Positions 6,423 to 40,905 of a stretch of DNA of 40,905 nt are shown here, one piece after another (within the stretch, counting starts at the first letter, position 1; each line of letters starts with the position of its first letter). The notes beneath the pieces were generated by a model. The model did not search any database and had not been told where the DNA came from. It worked only from the letters and a program-made list of their open reading frames with translations. Made by a program: the position numbers and the translations under genes. This stretch comes from a virus. The DNA is taken from IMG/VR virus record IMGVR_UViG_3300027854_000001, positions 1-40,905 of that record; one strand, written 5' to 3'.

Positions 6423-6786
6423 GTATCAACCTTCCTGTGTCGTGTTCAACTTGTATTGCGCGGTCATCGTAAATCGCTTTGCAGAAATAATCTTTGGTGT
6501 TGGTTATAGGCAACAGTCTACCTAAGTGCTTCAGACACCAATCCTGTATAGGTGCCATGACTTCAACCGGGTCAAGGGCACCATACTTTGGGTGATAGCA
6601 GTCCATGCGGGCGGTAAAGATTCGCACATCCTCACCGTCCGCAAGCCACTGCCTGACACGTTCAACCATGGCCGGAATAGGATTACCTGTCGCCCGGTAA
6701 TCCTGTTGCCAGTTACAGCCGAATGTTGCTAGAGTGCCGTCAAAATCAACGGCAATCCAACACTTATTGGTCAAAGTCTGTGTCAT
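6415..6786 (-). CDS. HAD-superfamily phosphatase
   Basis: 123 residues from ATG 6786 (AGGA 8 bases upstream; overlaps the SSB-like gene by 23 bp). Motif I is VDFDGTLA with the nucleophile and acid Asp pair, motif II is FTAR, and a late YDDRAIQVE supplies the acidic metal ligands. It is small with a minimal cap. Phage enzymes like this are usually thought to be nucleotidases or polynucleotide phosphatases. It overlaps the dNTP diphosphohydrolase gene, so a joint role in nucleotide turnover is a reasonable inference. Confidence 0.85.
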   Translation of the reverse strand: MTQTLTNKCWIAVDFDGTLATFGCNWQQDYRATGNPIPAMVERVRQWLADGEDVRIFTARMDCYHPKYGALDPVEVMAPIQDWCLKHLGRLLPITNTKDYFCKAIYDDRAIQVEHDTGRLIHD

Positions 6787-7489
6787 TGGTTTCCTGCTCG
6801 ATACCAGACACATCAACCTTGACACCGGCTTCTTGCAGCGCGGCGAAGTATTGCTTTGCCTGTTCGTACAGTGCAGCGGGTGTGAAGTTGCTACGTGAGA
6901 CCGTAACAACCTGATACTCACCCTTCTCACCGGGCTTCGCTTTGGACGTAAGCTTGTAAGTGTAGGCGTAAGCCGGAAGGTTCTTTTCGGCAATGAGGTA
7001 GTTCCATTGCTTTGCAGCCTTCAGGCCGGTTGATTTGAAGGAAACAACGATGGGTTGGATAGACCCGTCTTCCTTCAGGATGAGGCTCATGCGATTCTTG
7101 AACTCAGTGCAACGCGGCTTCTCACCGTTAATGAACAACAGATCAGAAGCAGGCGGTACATCCCCATCGTGGTACAGCTTCACGATGCTGCGGTCTTCTC
7201 CAAACTCAATGAACTGTTTGAAGAAGTGCAGCGGAATCACGGTTACCTGTTCGCCGTAAATCTCACCTGTTACAGAGTTGAAGAACTGCCCAACCTCAAG
7301 GTCCGGGTTATAGTTCTCGTTTGACTTCTTTAATTCAGGTGTCATAGCCTGAGCCAAGGACAAACGCGGGATAACCATGTCGCCTTGACCAACGTTCTCT
7401 TTCCCATCACGGTTGCCTGCATCTGCCTTCAGATACTCAGGCAGAGTTTCGAGCGAGTTATTTCCTCTGACTTCTAGTGCATTGCTCAT
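6764..7489 (-). CDS. SSB-like phage replication protein
   Basis: 241 residues; ATG at 7489 with GAGG 5 bases upstream. It has the pattern seen in phage proteins annotated as single-stranded DNA-binding or recombination-associated: a disordered start, then IPRLSLAQAMTPELKK, a segment VGQFFNSVTGEIYGEQVTVIP, a beta-rich centre, and an acidic C-terminal tail ending TNDTDFDQ. An acidic tail with a terminal aromatic residue is typical of SSBs that recruit partners. It lies between the helicase genes and the nucleotide enzymes. The assignment rests on pattern memory and context, not on a diagnostic motif. Confidence 0.6.
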   Translation of the reverse strand: MSNALEVRGNNSLETLPEYLKADAGNRDGKENVGQGDMVIPRLSLAQAMTPELKKSNENYNPDLEVGQFFNSVTGEIYGEQVTVIPLHFFKQFIEFGEDRSIVKLYHDGDVPPASDLLFINGEKPRCTEFKNRMSLILKEDGSIQPIVVSFKSTGLKAAKQWNYLIAEKNLPAYAYTYKLTSKAKPGEKGEYQVVTVSRSNFTPAALYEQAKQYFAALQEAGVKVDVSGIEQETNDTDFDQ

Positions 7490-7500
7490 GGACGCCTCTT

Positions 7501-7959
7501 TTATTTGGATTTGGTGTAACTAACTACTGCCACAGGGTCACCCTGTGTAATGCCGGGGGGAAGGCTGCCGGTCTCTTCCAACAGATTCTTGCTGATACTC
7601 TTTAAACGCTGATCGTAAATAGTCAACTCACTTTCCATGCCGCTTGCCTTCAGCCATGCAATGAAAGCATCCTTGTCTTCGGTCTTCAATGGGGATTCAA
7701 AGCGCACTGTTACACGGTGGCCGCTCTCAAAGTTCATGCTCTTCAAGTCTTGCTCTGAGAATCGCTCAGCAAAGATAGCCTCAATGACTGCAAGGCGCTG
7801 GTTAACGGCCTTCAAAGAAGAGTCAAGTGTTGCCTTCGTGTCTTTCAAATCACGGTATTTGTCTTCAAGGCCGTTAAAGTTCAACGGTAGATAGTCCGCA
7901 GAAATGCGGTTGAACTCTTCAGACTTGCGCTGTATCGTTTCTTCGTTCCACTTACCCAT
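7501..7959 (-). CDS. Conserved phage protein with coiled-coil N-terminus
   Basis: 152 residues; ATG at 7959 overlaps the helicase stop as TAATG with GGAGG 4 bases before. Residues about 28-66 form a heptad-like helix (GLEDKYRDLKDTKATLDSSL). The C-terminal half (RVTVRFESPLKTEDKDAFIAW and later SLPPGI) resembles a small phage family that regularly accompanies SNF2-type helicases and SSB-like proteins. Its biochemical role is unknown. A helicase or SSB accessory function is inferred only from this constant company. Confidence 0.7.
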   Translation of the reverse strand: MGKWNEETIQRKSEEFNRISADYLPLNFNGLEDKYRDLKDTKATLDSSLKAVNQRLAVIEAIFAERFSEQDLKSMNFESGHRVTVRFESPLKTEDKDAFIAWLKASGMESELTIYDQRLKSISKNLLEETGSLPPGITQGDPVAVVSYTKSK

Positions 7960-9509
7960 TATTCCTCCAAAAGAACTCGTTTCCAGTCTTGAGCCGTTCT
8001 CTTCTCTGCTTCCTCTTTGGCGCGGACACTAGCAACAATGTCATGCACTACGGTCTTCTGCCCGCGTGGGCCGGTCACAATCACATCAGCAAGCAGCGAA
8101 GTTTTCCGCACCCCTGTAGCCTGTATGCGGTCTTCGCTCTGTGATCGGGTCACACGGTCATAGTCTTGCGACAAGTAAACCGCTGTGTCGGCCTTTGACA
8201 GATTCAACCCGTACTTTGCGGCCTGAGGTTGAGCAACCAACACCAACGGGCCTGTGTAGCTGCTTGCTGGGTGTAATAGGTTATGACCTAGTTTTTTCTC
8301 ACCGTACAATAGACCATAGTGTATGGATTCTTTAACAAGCCGCTGCTCTAGTCGTTCAATCTCAGGCACGAAACGTGACCACACCACACATTTGAAGTCA
8401 GGTTGTTCTTCAAAGCGTTGAGCTAACCAACCCATCAGCATTTCCGTTGGTGCGTCATGTACTTCAATGGTCTGTGAATCAACAATGTCATAGTTGATGG
8501 GGTTAAACTTCATTTGAGGAAATAAAGCAACACCACCAAGAAACCCCGCGCAAATCTGAGCAAGCCTGATGCACTTCACGGCTGCATGACCAACAGCACA
8601 GACCCCGTTATCTATTTCAGCAACCAACTCATCACGCATAGAGCAATAAACCTTCCATGCCTTTTCACTCAGGGCCACAGGCAGCACAGCCGGAACCTTC
8701 ACCGGCATATCTAGTGCGTCTGCCAGGTATTCACAGTACGGGGCTGTGCGCCGTGCAAAGTCTTCTTCATTCTTGCGCTTGATAACCTCTATATGTGTGG
8801 CCACCGGCTTACGCTCACCTGTTTTCTCATCCGTCTTCCACTTATGAGGTACCTTGGCTGTCTCCGAATATCTTGCCCGGTAGTGATAGAACGACTTACA
8901 GCCAAGTATTTCTTTGTTAAGCAACTTGAACTTGCTGTAATAGCTCAGGTGTGAGTTGCCTTCCGGTGTACCGTCAAGCAATGTAACCCGCTTGATGGGG
9001 TCACCATTACGCAGTTCAATCATTGCCTTGGTTTGCTTACTCTTCCAGTTACCCAACACAGAACCTTCGTCAAAAACAAACCAAACGCTGCGACCGGCAA
9101 GAGCGGCCAATAGGTTGTCAACAAATGGAAAATTGTCATCAGGGCCTTGTTGCCGAAGATACTCAACACTAGCAACCACATAAGCAGGCTTACCATGAGG
9201 CAGCACCAACGAATTAAGTTTACGGTAGTCATAGGTTTTTGCTCCCGACCAATCGTGAGTTGCGAGTTCTCCAAAGTTCTTGTCTAACCAAACATCCTTT
9301 ACTTGTGCCGGTGCCACAACCAACAGCGTGTCAATCTCTTTGGCTTCAAAGAGAGTGCAGGCCGTGTCAATGACACACTTACTCTTGCCAAGCCTCATCT
9401 TCCAAAAGAGGCCATACACAGGGCTAGACACAAGCCGCTTCACACCGTGCAACTGATGCTTGTAAGGTGGAAGCTTGAAGCGGGATGGGGTGACCTCAAT
9501 CATTTCCAT
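7959..9509 (-). CDS. SNF2-family (SF2) helicase
   Basis: 516 residues from ATG 9509, overlapping the preceding gene; the longer frame to 9569 is unlikely because it runs deep into that gene. Motif I is WKMRLGKSK, motif II is WFVFDEGS (a variant of DEAH), motif III lies near LLDGTP, and the C-terminal RecA domain ends with motifs V and VI (AKYGLNLSKADTAVYLSQD, then RSQSEDRIQATG). This arrangement is typical of phage SNF2-like ATPases that move on double-stranded DNA and support replication or recombination. It lies between a PrimPol/helicase gene and the coiled-coil protein in one operon. Confidence 0.9.
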   Translation of the reverse strand: MEMIEVTPSRFKLPPYKHQLHGVKRLVSSPVYGLFWKMRLGKSKCVIDTACTLFEAKEIDTLLVVAPAQVKDVWLDKNFGELATHDWSGAKTYDYRKLNSLVLPHGKPAYVVASVEYLRQQGPDDNFPFVDNLLAALAGRSVWFVFDEGSVLGNWKSKQTKAMIELRNGDPIKRVTLLDGTPEGNSHLSYYSKFKLLNKEILGCKSFYHYRARYSETAKVPHKWKTDEKTGERKPVATHIEVIKRKNEEDFARRTAPYCEYLADALDMPVKVPAVLPVALSEKAWKVYCSMRDELVAEIDNGVCAVGHAAVKCIRLAQICAGFLGGVALFPQMKFNPINYDIVDSQTIEVHDAPTEMLMGWLAQRFEEQPDFKCVVWSRFVPEIERLEQRLVKESIHYGLLYGEKKLGHNLLHPASSYTGPLVLVAQPQAAKYGLNLSKADTAVYLSQDYDRVTRSQSEDRIQATGVRKTSLLADVIVTGPRGQKTVVHDIVASVRAKEEAEKRTAQDWKRVLLEE

Positions 9510-15875: not shown

Positions 15876-16187
15876 ATGACAGACAAGCAACGTGCAGATC
15901 ACGTACAGGCGAAGTATTGGAACGGTTACATTACTCGCACTGAAATTCAGAAGGTGTTTGAGGAAACAGCGGGAGTAATTCAGGCTCAGCAACAGACTCT
16001 TCAGAAGATGGACATGGTTATTAGCTGCATTGCTGAGAAGGTTGGATTGACCGCGCAAGATGTCAATGAGTGGGTTGCTAAGAAGGTTGTTGAAGTCGCC
16101 GCGAAGAATGGCGACGGTCAGGCAACTCCTGAAGTACAGGCGGAAGCATTGTCTCAAGAGCCTTCGCGGATTGTGCTAACCGACTAA
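15876..16187 (+). CDS. Hypothetical protein, 103 residues
   Basis: ATG 15876 with AAGG 9 bases upstream; TAA overlaps the next ATG (TAATG). The protein begins MTDKQRADHVQAKYWNGYIT and continues as helices (VFEETAGVIQAQQQTLQKMD) with a short acidic tail. There is no membrane segment or recognised domain. It is coupled to the FkbM-type methyltransferase gene. Confidence 0.75.
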   Translation: MTDKQRADHVQAKYWNGYITRTEIQKVFEETAGVIQAQQQTLQKMDMVISCIAEKVGLTAQDVNEWVAKKVVEVAAKNGDGQATPEVQAEALSQEPSRIVLTD

Positions 16188-16849
16188 TGCGAGTCTCAAT
16201 CAAAGGCAAGCCGTTTGAGGTACAGCCTGAGCCGTCCGACTATTGGAAGTGGATAGCGGAAGGTCGTTACGATCACGAATGGAAAGTTTACGACGGGGCG
16301 CTAACTAAGCAACACACGTTTGTTGACTTAGGTGCGTGGGTGGGTGCTCATAGTTTGTATGCATCCACCATCGCAGGGAGAGTAATCGCGGTAGAACCTG
16401 ACCCGGTTGCTTTCCCCATTGCGGAAAAGAATCTAGCGGGCTTTGACATTCACCGGCTTGCCATTAGTGGCAAGGTAGGTGACATAAAGCTTGGCAGCGG
16501 TTGGTTAGGTGCGAGTACAACGCGGGCCAATCCAAATGCAGGCAGCGGCATTGGGCCGTGGGATGAAGCCCACACGTGCGTTGTTCCTTGCACAACGTTG
16601 CGTGAGTTTTGCAAAGACATGCCTGACCCGCTCTTTATCAAGATTGATGTTGAAGGGTCTGAAGAAGAAATTTTGCAAGATGTTGAATTTTTTGCAAAAA
16701 GAAAACCAACGTTGTTGTTAGAGTTACACCCGTTTTGGTGGAAAGACGAAGCGCAGACGTGGGCAGACTTTGAAGCGGTGAAAGCGCTGTACAAGAATGC
16801 ACATGAGGTTCCACACCCCAACAGTAAAACATGGGTGCTGCATGACTGA
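16187..16849 (+). CDS. FkbM-family methyltransferase
   Basis: 220 residues. The SAM-binding loop is FVDLGAWVGAHSLYAS, the acidic end of strand 2 is AVEPDP, and the family hallmark IKIDVEGSEEEIL is present at about residues 150-162, followed by LLLELHPF. FkbM-type enzymes O-methylate sugars or small molecules. It is the first of three modification genes (two methyltransferases and a glycosyltransferase), all overlapping, which suggests joint synthesis or alteration of a glycan, either on the host surface or on virions. There is no sign of a DNA-methylase motif. Confidence 0.9.
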   Translation: MRVSIKGKPFEVQPEPSDYWKWIAEGRYDHEWKVYDGALTKQHTFVDLGAWVGAHSLYASTIAGRVIAVEPDPVAFPIAEKNLAGFDIHRLAISGKVGDIKLGSGWLGASTTRANPNAGSGIGPWDEAHTCVVPCTTLREFCKDMPDPLFIKIDVEGSEEEILQDVEFFAKRKPTLLLELHPFWWKDEAQTWADFEAVKALYKNAHEVPHPNSKTWVLHD

Positions 16850-17366
16850 GTTATGTAGGTTGGCGACGAAGTACAAGACAGACAAGATTCATTACACGCC
16901 TTTCTATTCTCTGTTGTTAGAGGGGCGAAGGGAATCAACCCATCGTGTTCTTGAAATTGGAATAGGCACACCGGAAGCAATGAAACATGTGCCGGGTTAC
17001 AGGCCGGGTGCCAGCTTGCGAATGTGGAAAGAGTATTTCCCTTATGCAGTTATTGATGGTGTTGATAAACAACACATACCAAACGTGCAAGAGGAACGCA
17101 TCAATGTGTGGGTTGCGGACCAAGGCAACGCGGGGCAGTTGAAGAACATTGTTAGTTATGACGGGTTTCAATACGATTTGATTGTAGATGATGGCAGTCA
17201 TCAAACGGAAGATCAGAGGATTAGTTTTGACACTCTGTACTCGTATTTGAAACCGGGCGGGCTGTACATTATCGAAGACATAAACGAAGAGTGGTTGAAA
17301 GTGCCTCATACATTCGCTTATGTACACGGTGAGTTGGTGGGTAGATGCGCGGTGATTCGTGGCTAA
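16842..17366 (+). CDS. Class I SAM-dependent methyltransferase
   Basis: 174 residues; ATG 16842 overlaps the FkbM gene by 8 bp. The sequence has VLEIGIGT (SAM-binding motif I), VIDGVDK, and FQYDLIVDDGSHQTEDQ with LKPGGLYIIED, as in Methyltransf_24-type or macrolide/sugar O-methyltransferases where the DDGSH motif binds a metal. It starts with TKYKTDKIHYTPFY, typical of the same group. The substrate is unknown; a sugar is likely from the context. It overlaps the glycosyltransferase gene. Confidence 0.85.
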   Translation: MTELCRLATKYKTDKIHYTPFYSLLLEGRRESTHRVLEIGIGTPEAMKHVPGYRPGASLRMWKEYFPYAVIDGVDKQHIPNVQEERINVWVADQGNAGQLKNIVSYDGFQYDLIVDDGSHQTEDQRISFDTLYSYLKPGGLYIIEDINEEWLKVPHTFAYVHGELVGRCAVIRG

Positions 17367-18738
17367 CACCAATATAAGCATGTTGGTTACGTCATGTGAC
17401 AGGCACGATCTGCTGAAGACTACGCTGGAAAGCTTTTATGCGGTGGTGGATATTGAGCCGCAAGAGTTGATTATTTATGAGGATTCCCCGGCAGAACAGC
17501 CGGAATGGTTGAAAGATTTCATTTGGAAGCAACGCGGCCTGAAGTGGATTTCAGGGCGTGAAAGGCGCGGGCAGGCTTTCGCTTGTGCGCTGCTGATCCA
17601 AGAAGCCAAACACGATTTTGTGTTTTGGTGTGAGGATGATTGGTTTTTTCAGAATCGCATCTCGCCTTTCATGCGCGAGTCAAAAGAGATTCTTAACCAA
17701 CACCCGCAGATAATTCAGGTTTCTCTCAGGGGTGACACAGGTTGGCACCCATTGGTGCATGAGGCGCTACATACGGCAACTCCGTATTGGCGGGGAGTGT
17801 GGGGCGGGTGGTCATGGAATCCGGGTCTTCGTCGCCTCTCGGATTGCCGTGCCATCTTCCCCGCAGTATCGCAACAGATCGGGCAGGACGGCTTGAAGCA
17901 TGAAGAAGCTTTAAGCAAGATGTTGTTAGATCAGGGAAGACGAATTGCGGACCTTAACCGGCCTGTGGTTACGCACATAGGCGGTGGACGTAGCAGAGCG
18001 ATTGAGAAGTTACCAACTCTGCCAAAGATTCTGATTGCTGTACCAACTTGCTTTTCGTTTGATTATGAAACGCGATGGGAGCACAAAGGGAATCCTGAGT
18101 ACGGCAAAGATATGCACGTCTCAGGGCCTAACGATCAGACACAGGCGGTAAGGGAGACTTGGGGCGCTGATGTTGCTGCGTTTGAGAATGTGGACCTTAG
18201 ATTTTTTTATGGTCGCCCGCGTGATGGTTATCCGCGTGAGCCGTTGGCTGATGAGATTTTTTTAGAGTGCCCTGATGCTTACGGGTCTCTTCCCAAAAAG
18301 ACGGTTGGGGTTTGTAAGTATGCCGCTGAGAACGGATACAAATTCGTTTATAAGTGCGACACCGATACATACGTCAACGTTGAAAAGTTGCTCATTGAAA
18401 TTCTGCAAAACCAGTTTGACTATGCCGGTTACTTGCATGGTGATGTTTGCAGCGGTGGACCTGGCTACTTACTTTCCCATTGGGCCTGCAAAGTAGTTGC
18501 AACACAAGGAAACAACCCGATTCATTGGGCCGAAGATGTACACGTGGCGAATACGTTGAAGAGTGCAGGAATTTCCCCATTGATGTTGGTTGGACATAGG
18601 CCGGGGTTTTCAGCGCACTTCTTTTTTGGAGATGGAAAAGCTTTTGATCCAAGCAAGATAACAGACGATGTAATCACGGCACACGCGGTATTTCCGGAGC
18701 AGATGCGACGATGGCACTCACTGTCAAAGAAAAAATAG
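17359..18738 (+). CDS. Two-domain glycosyltransferase (GT2-like + GT31-like)
   Basis: 459 residues; GTG 17359 or ATG 17380. The N-terminal domain (about 1-215) starts SMLVTSCDRHDLLKTTLESF and has the acidic motif CEDDW (91-95), as in GT2-type enzymes. The C-terminal domain (about 222-459) starts ILIAVPTC, then RETWG, LECPDAY, a D-x-D in KCDTDTYV (334-336), SGGPGYLLS and AEDVHV (E392-D393), which follow the Galactosyl_T/GT31 pattern better known from eukaryotes. One polypeptide may thus add two sugars. It probably acts with the two methyltransferases on a surface glycan (lysogenic conversion) or virion glycan. Confidence 0.85.
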   Translation: MANTNISMLVTSCDRHDLLKTTLESFYAVVDIEPQELIIYEDSPAEQPEWLKDFIWKQRGLKWISGRERRGQAFACALLIQEAKHDFVFWCEDDWFFQNRISPFMRESKEILNQHPQIIQVSLRGDTGWHPLVHEALHTATPYWRGVWGGWSWNPGLRRLSDCRAIFPAVSQQIGQDGLKHEEALSKMLLDQGRRIADLNRPVVTHIGGGRSRAIEKLPTLPKILIAVPTCFSFDYETRWEHKGNPEYGKDMHVSGPNDQTQAVRETWGADVAAFENVDLRFFYGRPRDGYPREPLADEIFLECPDAYGSLPKKTVGVCKYAAENGYKFVYKCDTDTYVNVEKLLIEILQNQFDYAGYLHGDVCSGGPGYLLSHWACKVVATQGNNPIHWAEDVHVANTLKSAGISPLMLVGHRPGFSAHFFFGDGKAFDPSKITDDVITAHAVFPEQMRRWHSLSKKK

Positions 18739-39415: not shown

Positions 39416-39576
39416 TGTTTGAGAAGATTGAAAAATACGTCAACCTGTTGGTGAAAATAGAGGCCCATGCAATCCTGATGATCCTCACAGGTGTCTTCAT
39501 GTGTCTTCACGGCAACAAAGAAGAAGGTCAGCTAATCATCGGTGCTGGCCTTGCCGTCTTCAAAGGGCACTCTTAA
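39415..39576 (+). CDS. Small membrane protein (holin-like)
   Basis: 53 residues; ATG 39415 overlaps the fibre stop (TAATG). Contains a hydrophobic segment (AHAILMILTGVFMCLHG) and a second weakly hydrophobic one (QLIIGAGLAVFKGHS). The pattern is that of short phage proteins at the end of fibre operons, sometimes annotated as holins. Its 3' end overlaps the convergent integrase gene by 17 bp. Confidence 0.65.
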   Translation: MFEKIEKYVNLLVKIEAHAILMILTGVFMCLHGNKEEGQLIIGAGLAVFKGHS

Positions 39577-40678
39577 CCTTTTCTTCTAACAACCTCATTC
39601 CCTTCAAAGCTTCTTCGGGCATTGCACTCTCATAGTGTTGCTGCGTGACCTGTGTCGTACTGTGGCGCAGCACATCGCGGCCGGCGTTGCTGTTCCCTGT
39701 CAGCGCCCGCAACATCGTCCCAACTCCGCGTCTACCTGCATGGTAGCCCTTCCACGGCAGCCCTGCTTCTACCAGGCAGGGCCGTATCGTTCTAACAGCA
39801 ACGTCCTTCAGGTCTAGGGGGTTGCCTCTCTCGTTCGGAAAGACCCACAAGGCAGAAGTGCTCTTGCCCCGCCACAGCCCCAAAAACAGCCTCACAGGAG
39901 CGATTAGGGGCACAGGCGCGGCACTCTTCAGGGTCTTGGGGGTCACGATATGCCCGCGCACACATGCCCGTCTAACGTGAATAGCATGGTCATCAATATC
40001 ACCCCATTGTAAACCTGCAATCTCACCTTTCCGCAACCCTGCAAAATAGGATAGAGCCATGATGAGTTGACACATTGGATGGTCAACAAGGGCTGAGATG
40101 ACATTCTCAATCTCTTCCAAAGTGTACGATTCTGTCTCACCGTTCGGTAGGGTCTTCCCCAACACCATCGCATCACGGATGGGGTTTGTTTCGCAAGACC
40201 CTATAGCAACCGCATGAGCAAACAAGGCGGAAGCCAGAAACTTTACATGCTGCACGGTACGCGGCCTTAATCTCTTCGCTAGTTGGGTTATCAAAAGAGA
40301 GAAGACCGATGTCTTGTAATTGCTCAATAACTGCTGTGCAAAATGCGTCTTTAGGTGTTGATTCCATATTTGCGTGTACCCCTGCACGGTTGATGGTTTG
40401 AGGTTGGTGGTTATGAACGGCAAATACACCGTATCCCAAAATTCAACCACGGTAAGGCTCTTGACCTGTGGTTGTTCTGTGTTGACCGTTCGCATGAAGT
40501 CTTCGCACAATTCCCGCACTTTCTTAGCGGTTGGTGCTCCGCAGCCTGCGTTGCGATCTTTGCAGCACAGCATGTGCGATTTCTGCTTGCGGGTGCCGTC
40601 CACCATCGCATAGTATCTGACGTGGAAGGCGTTGCTGGCTTCGTAAATGTAACCGCGTTGGTGCCTCATGCAACCCAT
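39560..40678 (-). CDS. int: Tyrosine-family integrase
   Basis: 372 residues from ATG 40678 (an in-frame ATG at 40669 and a TTG at 40687 are alternatives; no clear ribosome site). The N-terminal region has a Cys-containing, probably arm-binding, domain (SHMLCCKDRNAGCG) and the core-binding SAM-like domain follows. The catalytic domain has the first Arg in AGLRKGEIAGL, the His/Arg in YHAGRRGVGT, and the His and nucleophile Tyr in LRHSTTQVTQQHYE. It would catalyse integration at the selC-type attP about 75 bp upstream. Convergent with the late operon. Confidence 0.92.
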   Translation of the reverse strand: MGCMRHQRGYIYEASNAFHVRYYAMVDGTRKQKSHMLCCKDRNAGCGAPTAKKVRELCEDFMRTVNTEQPQVKSLTVVEFWDTVYLPFITTNLKPSTVQGYTQIWNQHLKTHFAQQLLSNYKTSVFSLLITQLAKRLRPRTVQHVKFLASALFAHAVAIGSCETNPIRDAMVLGKTLPNGETESYTLEEIENVISALVDHPMCQLIMALSYFAGLRKGEIAGLQWGDIDDHAIHVRRACVRGHIVTPKTLKSAAPVPLIAPVRLFLGLWRGKSTSALWVFPNERGNPLDLKDVAVRTIRPCLVEAGLPWKGYHAGRRGVGTMLRALTGNSNAGRDVLRHSTTQVTQQHYESAMPEEALKGMRLLEEKVKSAL

Positions 40679-40706
40679 CGTAAGCAACTACCAGAAGCAA
40701 CACAAG

Positions 40707-40720
40707 AGCACGAAAGTGCT
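40707..40720 (+). other. Small hairpin between integrase and attP
   Basis: AGCAC and GTGCT form a five-pair stem closed by a GAAA tetraloop. It lies in the 60-bp space between the integrase start and the tRNA-Sec half. No U-tract follows on either strand. It could be part of the integrase leader or an integrase/excisionase binding site. Confidence 0.3.
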
Positions 40721-40725
40721 ATGAC

Positions 40726-40734
40726 ATGCGATGA
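40726..40734 (+). other. Candidate integrase arm-type site (P arm)
   Basis: ATGCGATGA, one base different from the two ATGCGATGG repeats on the other side of the attP core. It lies about 50 bp left of the anticodon-arm core. Direct repeats flanking a core are typical arm-binding sites of tyrosine integrases. The assignment is inferred from position and repetition only. Confidence 0.45.
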
Positions 40735-40751
40735 AAATTCTGTAAGTTGTT

Positions 40752-40796
40752 GGAAGCGAAGGGAATCCGGTTGGTTCCCCCGGTCTTCAAAACCGG
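40752..40796 (+). other. attP: 5' half of a selenocysteine tRNA gene
   Basis: Read on the plus strand, the segment folds as the 5' half of a bacterial tRNA-Sec: an 8-nt acceptor strand GGAAGCGA (40752-40759), a long D-stem GGGAATC/GGTTCCC (40761-40767 with 40773-40779) closed by the minimal loop CGGTT, and an anticodon arm CCGGT-CTTCAAA-ACCGG (40780-40796) whose loop carries the Sec anticodon TCA (40787-40789). A six- or seven-pair D-stem with a tiny loop is characteristic of tRNA-Sec. No variable arm, T arm or matching 3' acceptor strand follows, so this is half a gene. It lies about 75 bp upstream of the integrase start, as expected of an attachment site. Inference: integration occurs in the anticodon region of host selC and the phage supplies the new 5' half. 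The anticodon-arm portion also occurs at 2-18. Confidence 0.8.
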
Positions 40797-40905
40797 CTGA
40801 TTATCGTGTTTTCAATAGGTTACGGGTGGTAGTTGTTTGCTGAAGTGTGCGCCGTTTGCTGTGGTTTGCAGCGATTATGCGATGGAATATGCGATGGTTT
40901 TTTAG
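40779..40905. repeat. Right copy of 127-bp terminal direct repeat
   Basis: Exact copy of bases 1-127; see the left copy. Joining the two places the integrase gene next to attP and then the distal end of the leftward early operon, a sensible temperate-phage order, which supports circularity. Confidence 0.95.

Follow-up and report, generated by a model that had tools for sequence, protein, structure and literature searches.

The 5′ half of a tRNA-Sec gene in a probable phage attachment site of reversed polarity

An IMG/VR virus record ends, just beyond its integrase gene, in DNA that resembles one half of a selenocysteine tRNA gene. This raises the question of what such a half gene does beside an integrase, and what integration through it would mean for the host selC gene.

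A tRNA-Sec half gene beside a tyrosine integrase gene

The window, that is, the whole 40,905-nt stretch analyzed (IMGVR_UViG_3300027854_000001), is a circular phage genome with a unit of 40778 bp. A repeat search revealed a 127-bp end repeat at 1-127, with a second copy at the record end (40779-40905) that starts 1 nt before the anticodon arm of the half gene. Because the record is circular, the attachment site is assembled as an intact, contiguous attP. Profile matches include a terminase, a portal, a major head protein, a DNA polymerase, a helicase, a primase and a tyrosine integrase. Two other regions were recorded. Upstream of the terminase, at 16187-18738, an FkbM-type methyltransferase, a second methyltransferase-like ORF and a glycosyltransferase-like protein (Galactosyl_T) stand in series and possibly represent surface- or capsid-modification cargo. 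Inside the replication gene cluster, at 6764-7959, two proteins match Pfam families named after Pam3 phage gp34 and gp33.

The integrase gene occupies 39560-40678 on the minus strand, with an ATG at 40678 and an alternative ORF start, TTG, at 40687. Its product is assigned to phrog_1 integrase (E 7.5e-38) and matches Pfam PF00589 (E 5.8e-6). The ORF is open over 375 aa and the catalytic region is intact on inspection of the translation by eye, so the phage carries an intact tyrosine recombinase gene.

Divergent from this gene and about 73 bp away lies a segment at 40752-40796 (+), GGAAGCGAAGGGAATCCGGTTGGTTCCCCCGGTCTTCAAAACCGG, which, judged on sequence and predicted fold, is confirmed as a tRNA-Sec gene 5′ half. 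It comprises the acceptor strand, a long D-arm and a UCA anticodon arm, folds into a D hairpin and an anticodon hairpin, begins at the mature 5′ end (GGAAGCG) and ends where the anticodon arm ends. The Rfam tRNA-Sec model (RF01852) scores 22.9 bits over 40752-40813 (+) (E = 7.3e-4, with this single family searched against the whole record), which is under the cut-off of 47 bits, as expected because the 3′ half is absent. Pairing within the match is good in the D-arm and in the CUUCAAA anticodon arm, both of which are intact. No T-arm or 3′ half follows 40796, and ARAGORN found no complete tRNA in the whole window. A 3′ acceptor-like stretch following the anticodon arm was considered and rejected, as its pairing is at chance level, no better than that of shuffled sequence.

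Comparison with natural selC genes agrees with this identification. The 17-mer at 40780-40796 (CCGGTCTTCAAAACCGG) recurs without a mismatch as the anticodon arm of natural selC at three loci: L004 and L005, whose genes score 73.9 and 82 bits with RF01852, and L083, whose gene is called tRNA-SeC by ARAGORN. By our own arithmetic, chance would produce any particular 17-mer about 5e-6 times in 41 kb, counting both strands. These results bear out the initial annotation, which had placed a tRNA-Sec 5′ half without its 3′ half at exactly these coordinates and had suggested a covariance-model fold as a check. Natural selC 5′ halves match the full 45-nt segment at 33-36 of 45 positions.

Layout of the attachment site and its counterpart in a sister phage

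The half gene places tRNA-gene sequence over a palindromic core next to the integrase gene. The putative attP core, 40780-40796 (+), coincides with the palindromic anticodon stem and lies outside the integrase gene; its 7-bp loop CTTCAAA is at 40785-40791, with the anticodon TCA at 40787-40789. The end repeat starting at 40779 may, as a weak and post hoc reading, mark the left edge of identity with attB: a contig breakpoint would be expected there if reads from lysogen junctions made the assembly graph branch at this position.

A separate assembly provides the most informative comparison. G004, retrieved through its terminase, is a circular 41.95-kb phage, also with a 127-bp end repeat, whose terminase and integrase are 81% and 66% identical to those of the window phage and whose DNA is similar over most of the genome. 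Its attP, likewise oriented away from the integrase gene, carries GGAGATGTGGCCGAGAGGCTGAAGGCGGCGGTTTGCTAAACCGG, the 5′ half of a tRNA-Ser(GCU) gene (Rfam tRNA, 19.9 bits), which also stops after the anticodon arm. In both phages the site holds the 5′ part of a tRNA gene up to its mature 5′ end, without the 3′ part.

Alignment of the two sites shows that the flanks are conserved around the exchanged halves. Upstream, a block at 40703-40722 (+), CAAGAGCACGAAAGTGCTAT, aligns with CAAGGGCACGAAAGTACCAT of G004 at an equal distance from the tRNA half; the portion CAAGRGCACGAAAGTRCYAT is present in both and ends 29 nt before the tRNA start. The core is common to both as CGGTYTKCWAAACCGGCT, and conserved TTTTCARTAGKTTACGGG follows it. 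On the P′ side, a block at 40809-40826 (+), TTTTCAATAGGTTACGGG, aligns with TTTTCAGTAGTTTACGGG. The upstream block, which contains a small palindrome at 40707-40720 (+), AGCACGAAAGTGCT, is possibly an arm-type or operator site. The motif GCACGAA[AC]GT, which could be a phage operator, occurs four times in the window (0.24 expected), at 493, 637, 4799 (-) and 40708, the last preceding the tRNA half. Two 12-nt direct repeats, GATTATGCGATG/GAATATGCGATG, were found by repeat search at 40873-40896 (+), with a third, partial copy on the opposite side of the core at 40726-40736. They are possible arm-type sites, an assignment that is tentative because ATGCGATGG-like words are over-represented across the whole window.

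A different tRNA half at the same place between conserved flanks makes an attP of reversed polarity very likely, as the initial annotation had proposed in calling this an attP with a polarity opposite to the usual one. The homologous arrangement in G004 also rules out an assembly chimaera. On sequence comparison, a conserved attP chassis with an exchanged tRNA half would look like the picture of an integrase that switched target, and it is unlike a fossil or a free RNA.

The second of these, an RNA transcribed from attP with a function of its own, either a mini-tRNA lacking the T-arm or a decoy for SerRS, SelA or SelB, draws on two observations: G-U pairs allow sequence downstream of the anticodon arm to close the acceptor stem, and both halves (Sec and Ser) derive from SerRS-charged tRNAs. 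Against shuffled sequence, this acceptor-closing pairing gives p of about 0.10 in the window and 0.37 in G004. With the CCA end, the T-arm and an evident promoter all absent, and with the sequence occupying the att position, such a role is barely credible.

The fossil alternative, in which the half gene is a relic of a past imprecise excision and not a current attP, bears on the search for lysogens. The initial annotation had predicted prophages with this integrase beside selC; none was found in a scan of genome contigs or in 398 Pseudomonadota genomes. The scan of genome contigs gave just two distant integrases and no integrated relative, and the 398 genomes held no related integrase. A single-protein query found no close relatives of the integrase among viral contigs; a first profile search gave G004 alone and a second gave G004 and weak partial matches. 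Pattern searches with the P′ block and an integrase motif returned G004 and unrelated matches, and nothing else. The lack of observed lysogens would fit a relic, and tRNA fragments near integrases are common. The half is structurally intact, however, and the other tRNA half between conserved flanks in G004 indicates that the position has been maintained while its content was swapped. We therefore regard a relic as very unlikely and continue to read the site as a probable current attP.

The same searches bear on the host. The core 17-mer is present in only one of the 398 Pseudomonadota genomes which, together with the lack of a related integrase in them, does not favour this phylum. Some structural proteins have their nearest named relatives in Tunturiibacter phage Tunturi_3, which weakly suggests Acidobacteriota as a possible host phylum. 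Other polarities occur within the wider phage group: G012, a relative with a 51% identical terminase and a non-orthologous integrase, holds a 3′-half-like fragment of tRNA-Arg(ACG) in the usual polarity at G012:36978-37048 (L077:3979-4049). Polarity may thus go with integrase type.

Predicted integration into selC and expression of the rebuilt gene

Taken together, 40703-40905 very probably serves as attP for a temperate tailed phage, and the phage integrase would recombine in the anticodon arm of host selC with reversed polarity. We infer that the phage integrates, where the crossover falls and that the product is transcribed from phage DNA. Crossover would take place in the 7-bp anticodon loop within the palindromic stem; an anticodon loop serving as a 7-bp overlap in such a stem is a standard tyrosine-recombinase core (PMC4383910, PMC8371274). 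The phage would contribute the 5′ half (acceptor strand, D-arm and anticodon arm), and the host would retain the 3′ half (variable arm, T-arm and 3′ acceptor strand). The integrase-proximal junction would then hold a complete tRNA-Sec gene of hybrid origin, preceded by the phage DNA between the integrase gene and the tRNA start. At the far end, the host 5′ half and the host promoter would remain as a truncated remnant joined to phage DNA.

In silico recombinants are consistent with these predictions. ARAGORN reports a tRNA-SeC for fusions of the phage half with the L004, L005 and L006 3′ halves, and none for attP by itself or for the predicted far-end junction. Furthermore, the 3′ acceptor of L004 complements every position of the phage acceptor strand, GGAAGCG.

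These results also bear on a lysogeny that disrupts the tRNA gene, in which phage and host would share only a short core and the rebuilt tRNA would be dead, with a full tRNA supplied elsewhere or the host left without tRNA-Sec. The core may span just about 17 bp (40780-40796), and the DNA upstream of the half lacks a clear promoter. tRNA-Sec is not essential in many bacteria, and its loss is often tolerated. A related strategy, tRNA-dependent lysogeny, is established in actinobacteriophages (PMC10865867). Yet ARAGORN finds no complete tRNA in the window with which the phage could replace the lost one, and keeping the acceptor strand and D-arm intact ahead of the core would be pointless were the hybrid dead. 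The tRNA-SeC calls obtained with natural selC 3′ halves likewise speak against a dead hybrid. Disruption is accordingly quite unlikely, and reconstitution of selC remains the preferred reading.

Whether the rebuilt gene would be expressed is a separate matter. The initial annotation held that host tRNA-Sec would be transcribed from phage DNA. The geometry does put the rebuilt tRNA downstream of phage DNA, but no convincing promoter was found there: the 73 bp between the integrase gene and the half contain no sigma-70-like promoter clearly above shuffled sequence, the best pair being equalled in 27% of shuffles. In G004 a better sigma-70-like candidate, TTGTCA-17-TATACT, lies 169 nt upstream. 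The hybrid gene may be silent just as well as expressed from phage DNA.

Prophage influence on host selenoprotein synthesis can be put forward here as a hypothesis: if transcription passes to phage DNA, lysogeny could affect it. A more specific version, in which a promoter or operator on the phage (such as the palindrome AGCACGAAAGTGCT) takes control of host tRNA-Sec during lysogeny and selenoprotein synthesis is tuned or switched off until excision restores it, is in our judgment unlikely. If true, it would represent an active-lysogeny switch acting on the 21st amino acid of the genetic code.

Comparison with known tRNA-targeting systems

The initial annotation had presented the arrangement as unusual. 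It does belong to a minority class, recombination with the 5′-distal part of tRNA genes being described in the literature as considerably rarer, but it is less novel than was implied: integration with a 5′ half is documented, and in the Islander collection 159 of 3919 islands carry a 5′ tDNA fragment (PMC4383910). Islands with a displaced 5′ tDNA fragment go back to Zhao and Williams (2002), as cited in PMC6563490. Like the window phage, these islands bring the 5′ part of a tRNA gene and use a tyrosine integrase; anticodon-centred att sites are common among tRNA islands. They differ in that the phage case is deduced from attP alone, that its target is selC and that a sister phage carries a tRNA-Ser half.

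A second parallel is archaeal. The attB of pTN3-like elements corresponds to a tRNA-gene 5′ half, and transcription of the rebuilt tRNA comes from the element side, driven by the integrase promoter in a manner "seldomly encountered in bacteria" (PMC8371274). When these elements integrate, their integrase gene is cut into int(N) and int(C), whereas the attP of the window phage lies outside an integrase gene that stays whole; moreover, the phage is presumably bacterial. The actinobacteriophages with tRNA-dependent lysogeny similarly have an attB overlapping a tRNA gene and a tyrosine recombinase, but they encode a whole replacement tRNA and the host gene is not rebuilt, whereas the window phage encodes none (PMC10865867).

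Elements of the usual polarity beside selC (L004, L005 and L006) share the target gene and the identical anticodon arm. In both L004 and L005 selC is intact, and the integrase gene lies to its 3′ side. L006, a viral contig of 73% GC, carries at 8025-8041 (-) a tRNA-Sec 3′ half only, from the anticodon arm on, and the 5′ half of the window phage is its mirror image.

A small open-access literature search turned up no report of selC entered in this polarity and none of sister phages whose halves are exchanged, and such an absence is weak evidence. Reversed, 5′-half integration is a known minority class for which selC is a new target here, and selC would join the few tRNA genes that elements enter from the 5′ side. 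One attP chassis with two halves, Sec and Ser, in sister phages suggests how an integrase can change target: by a half-gene swap.
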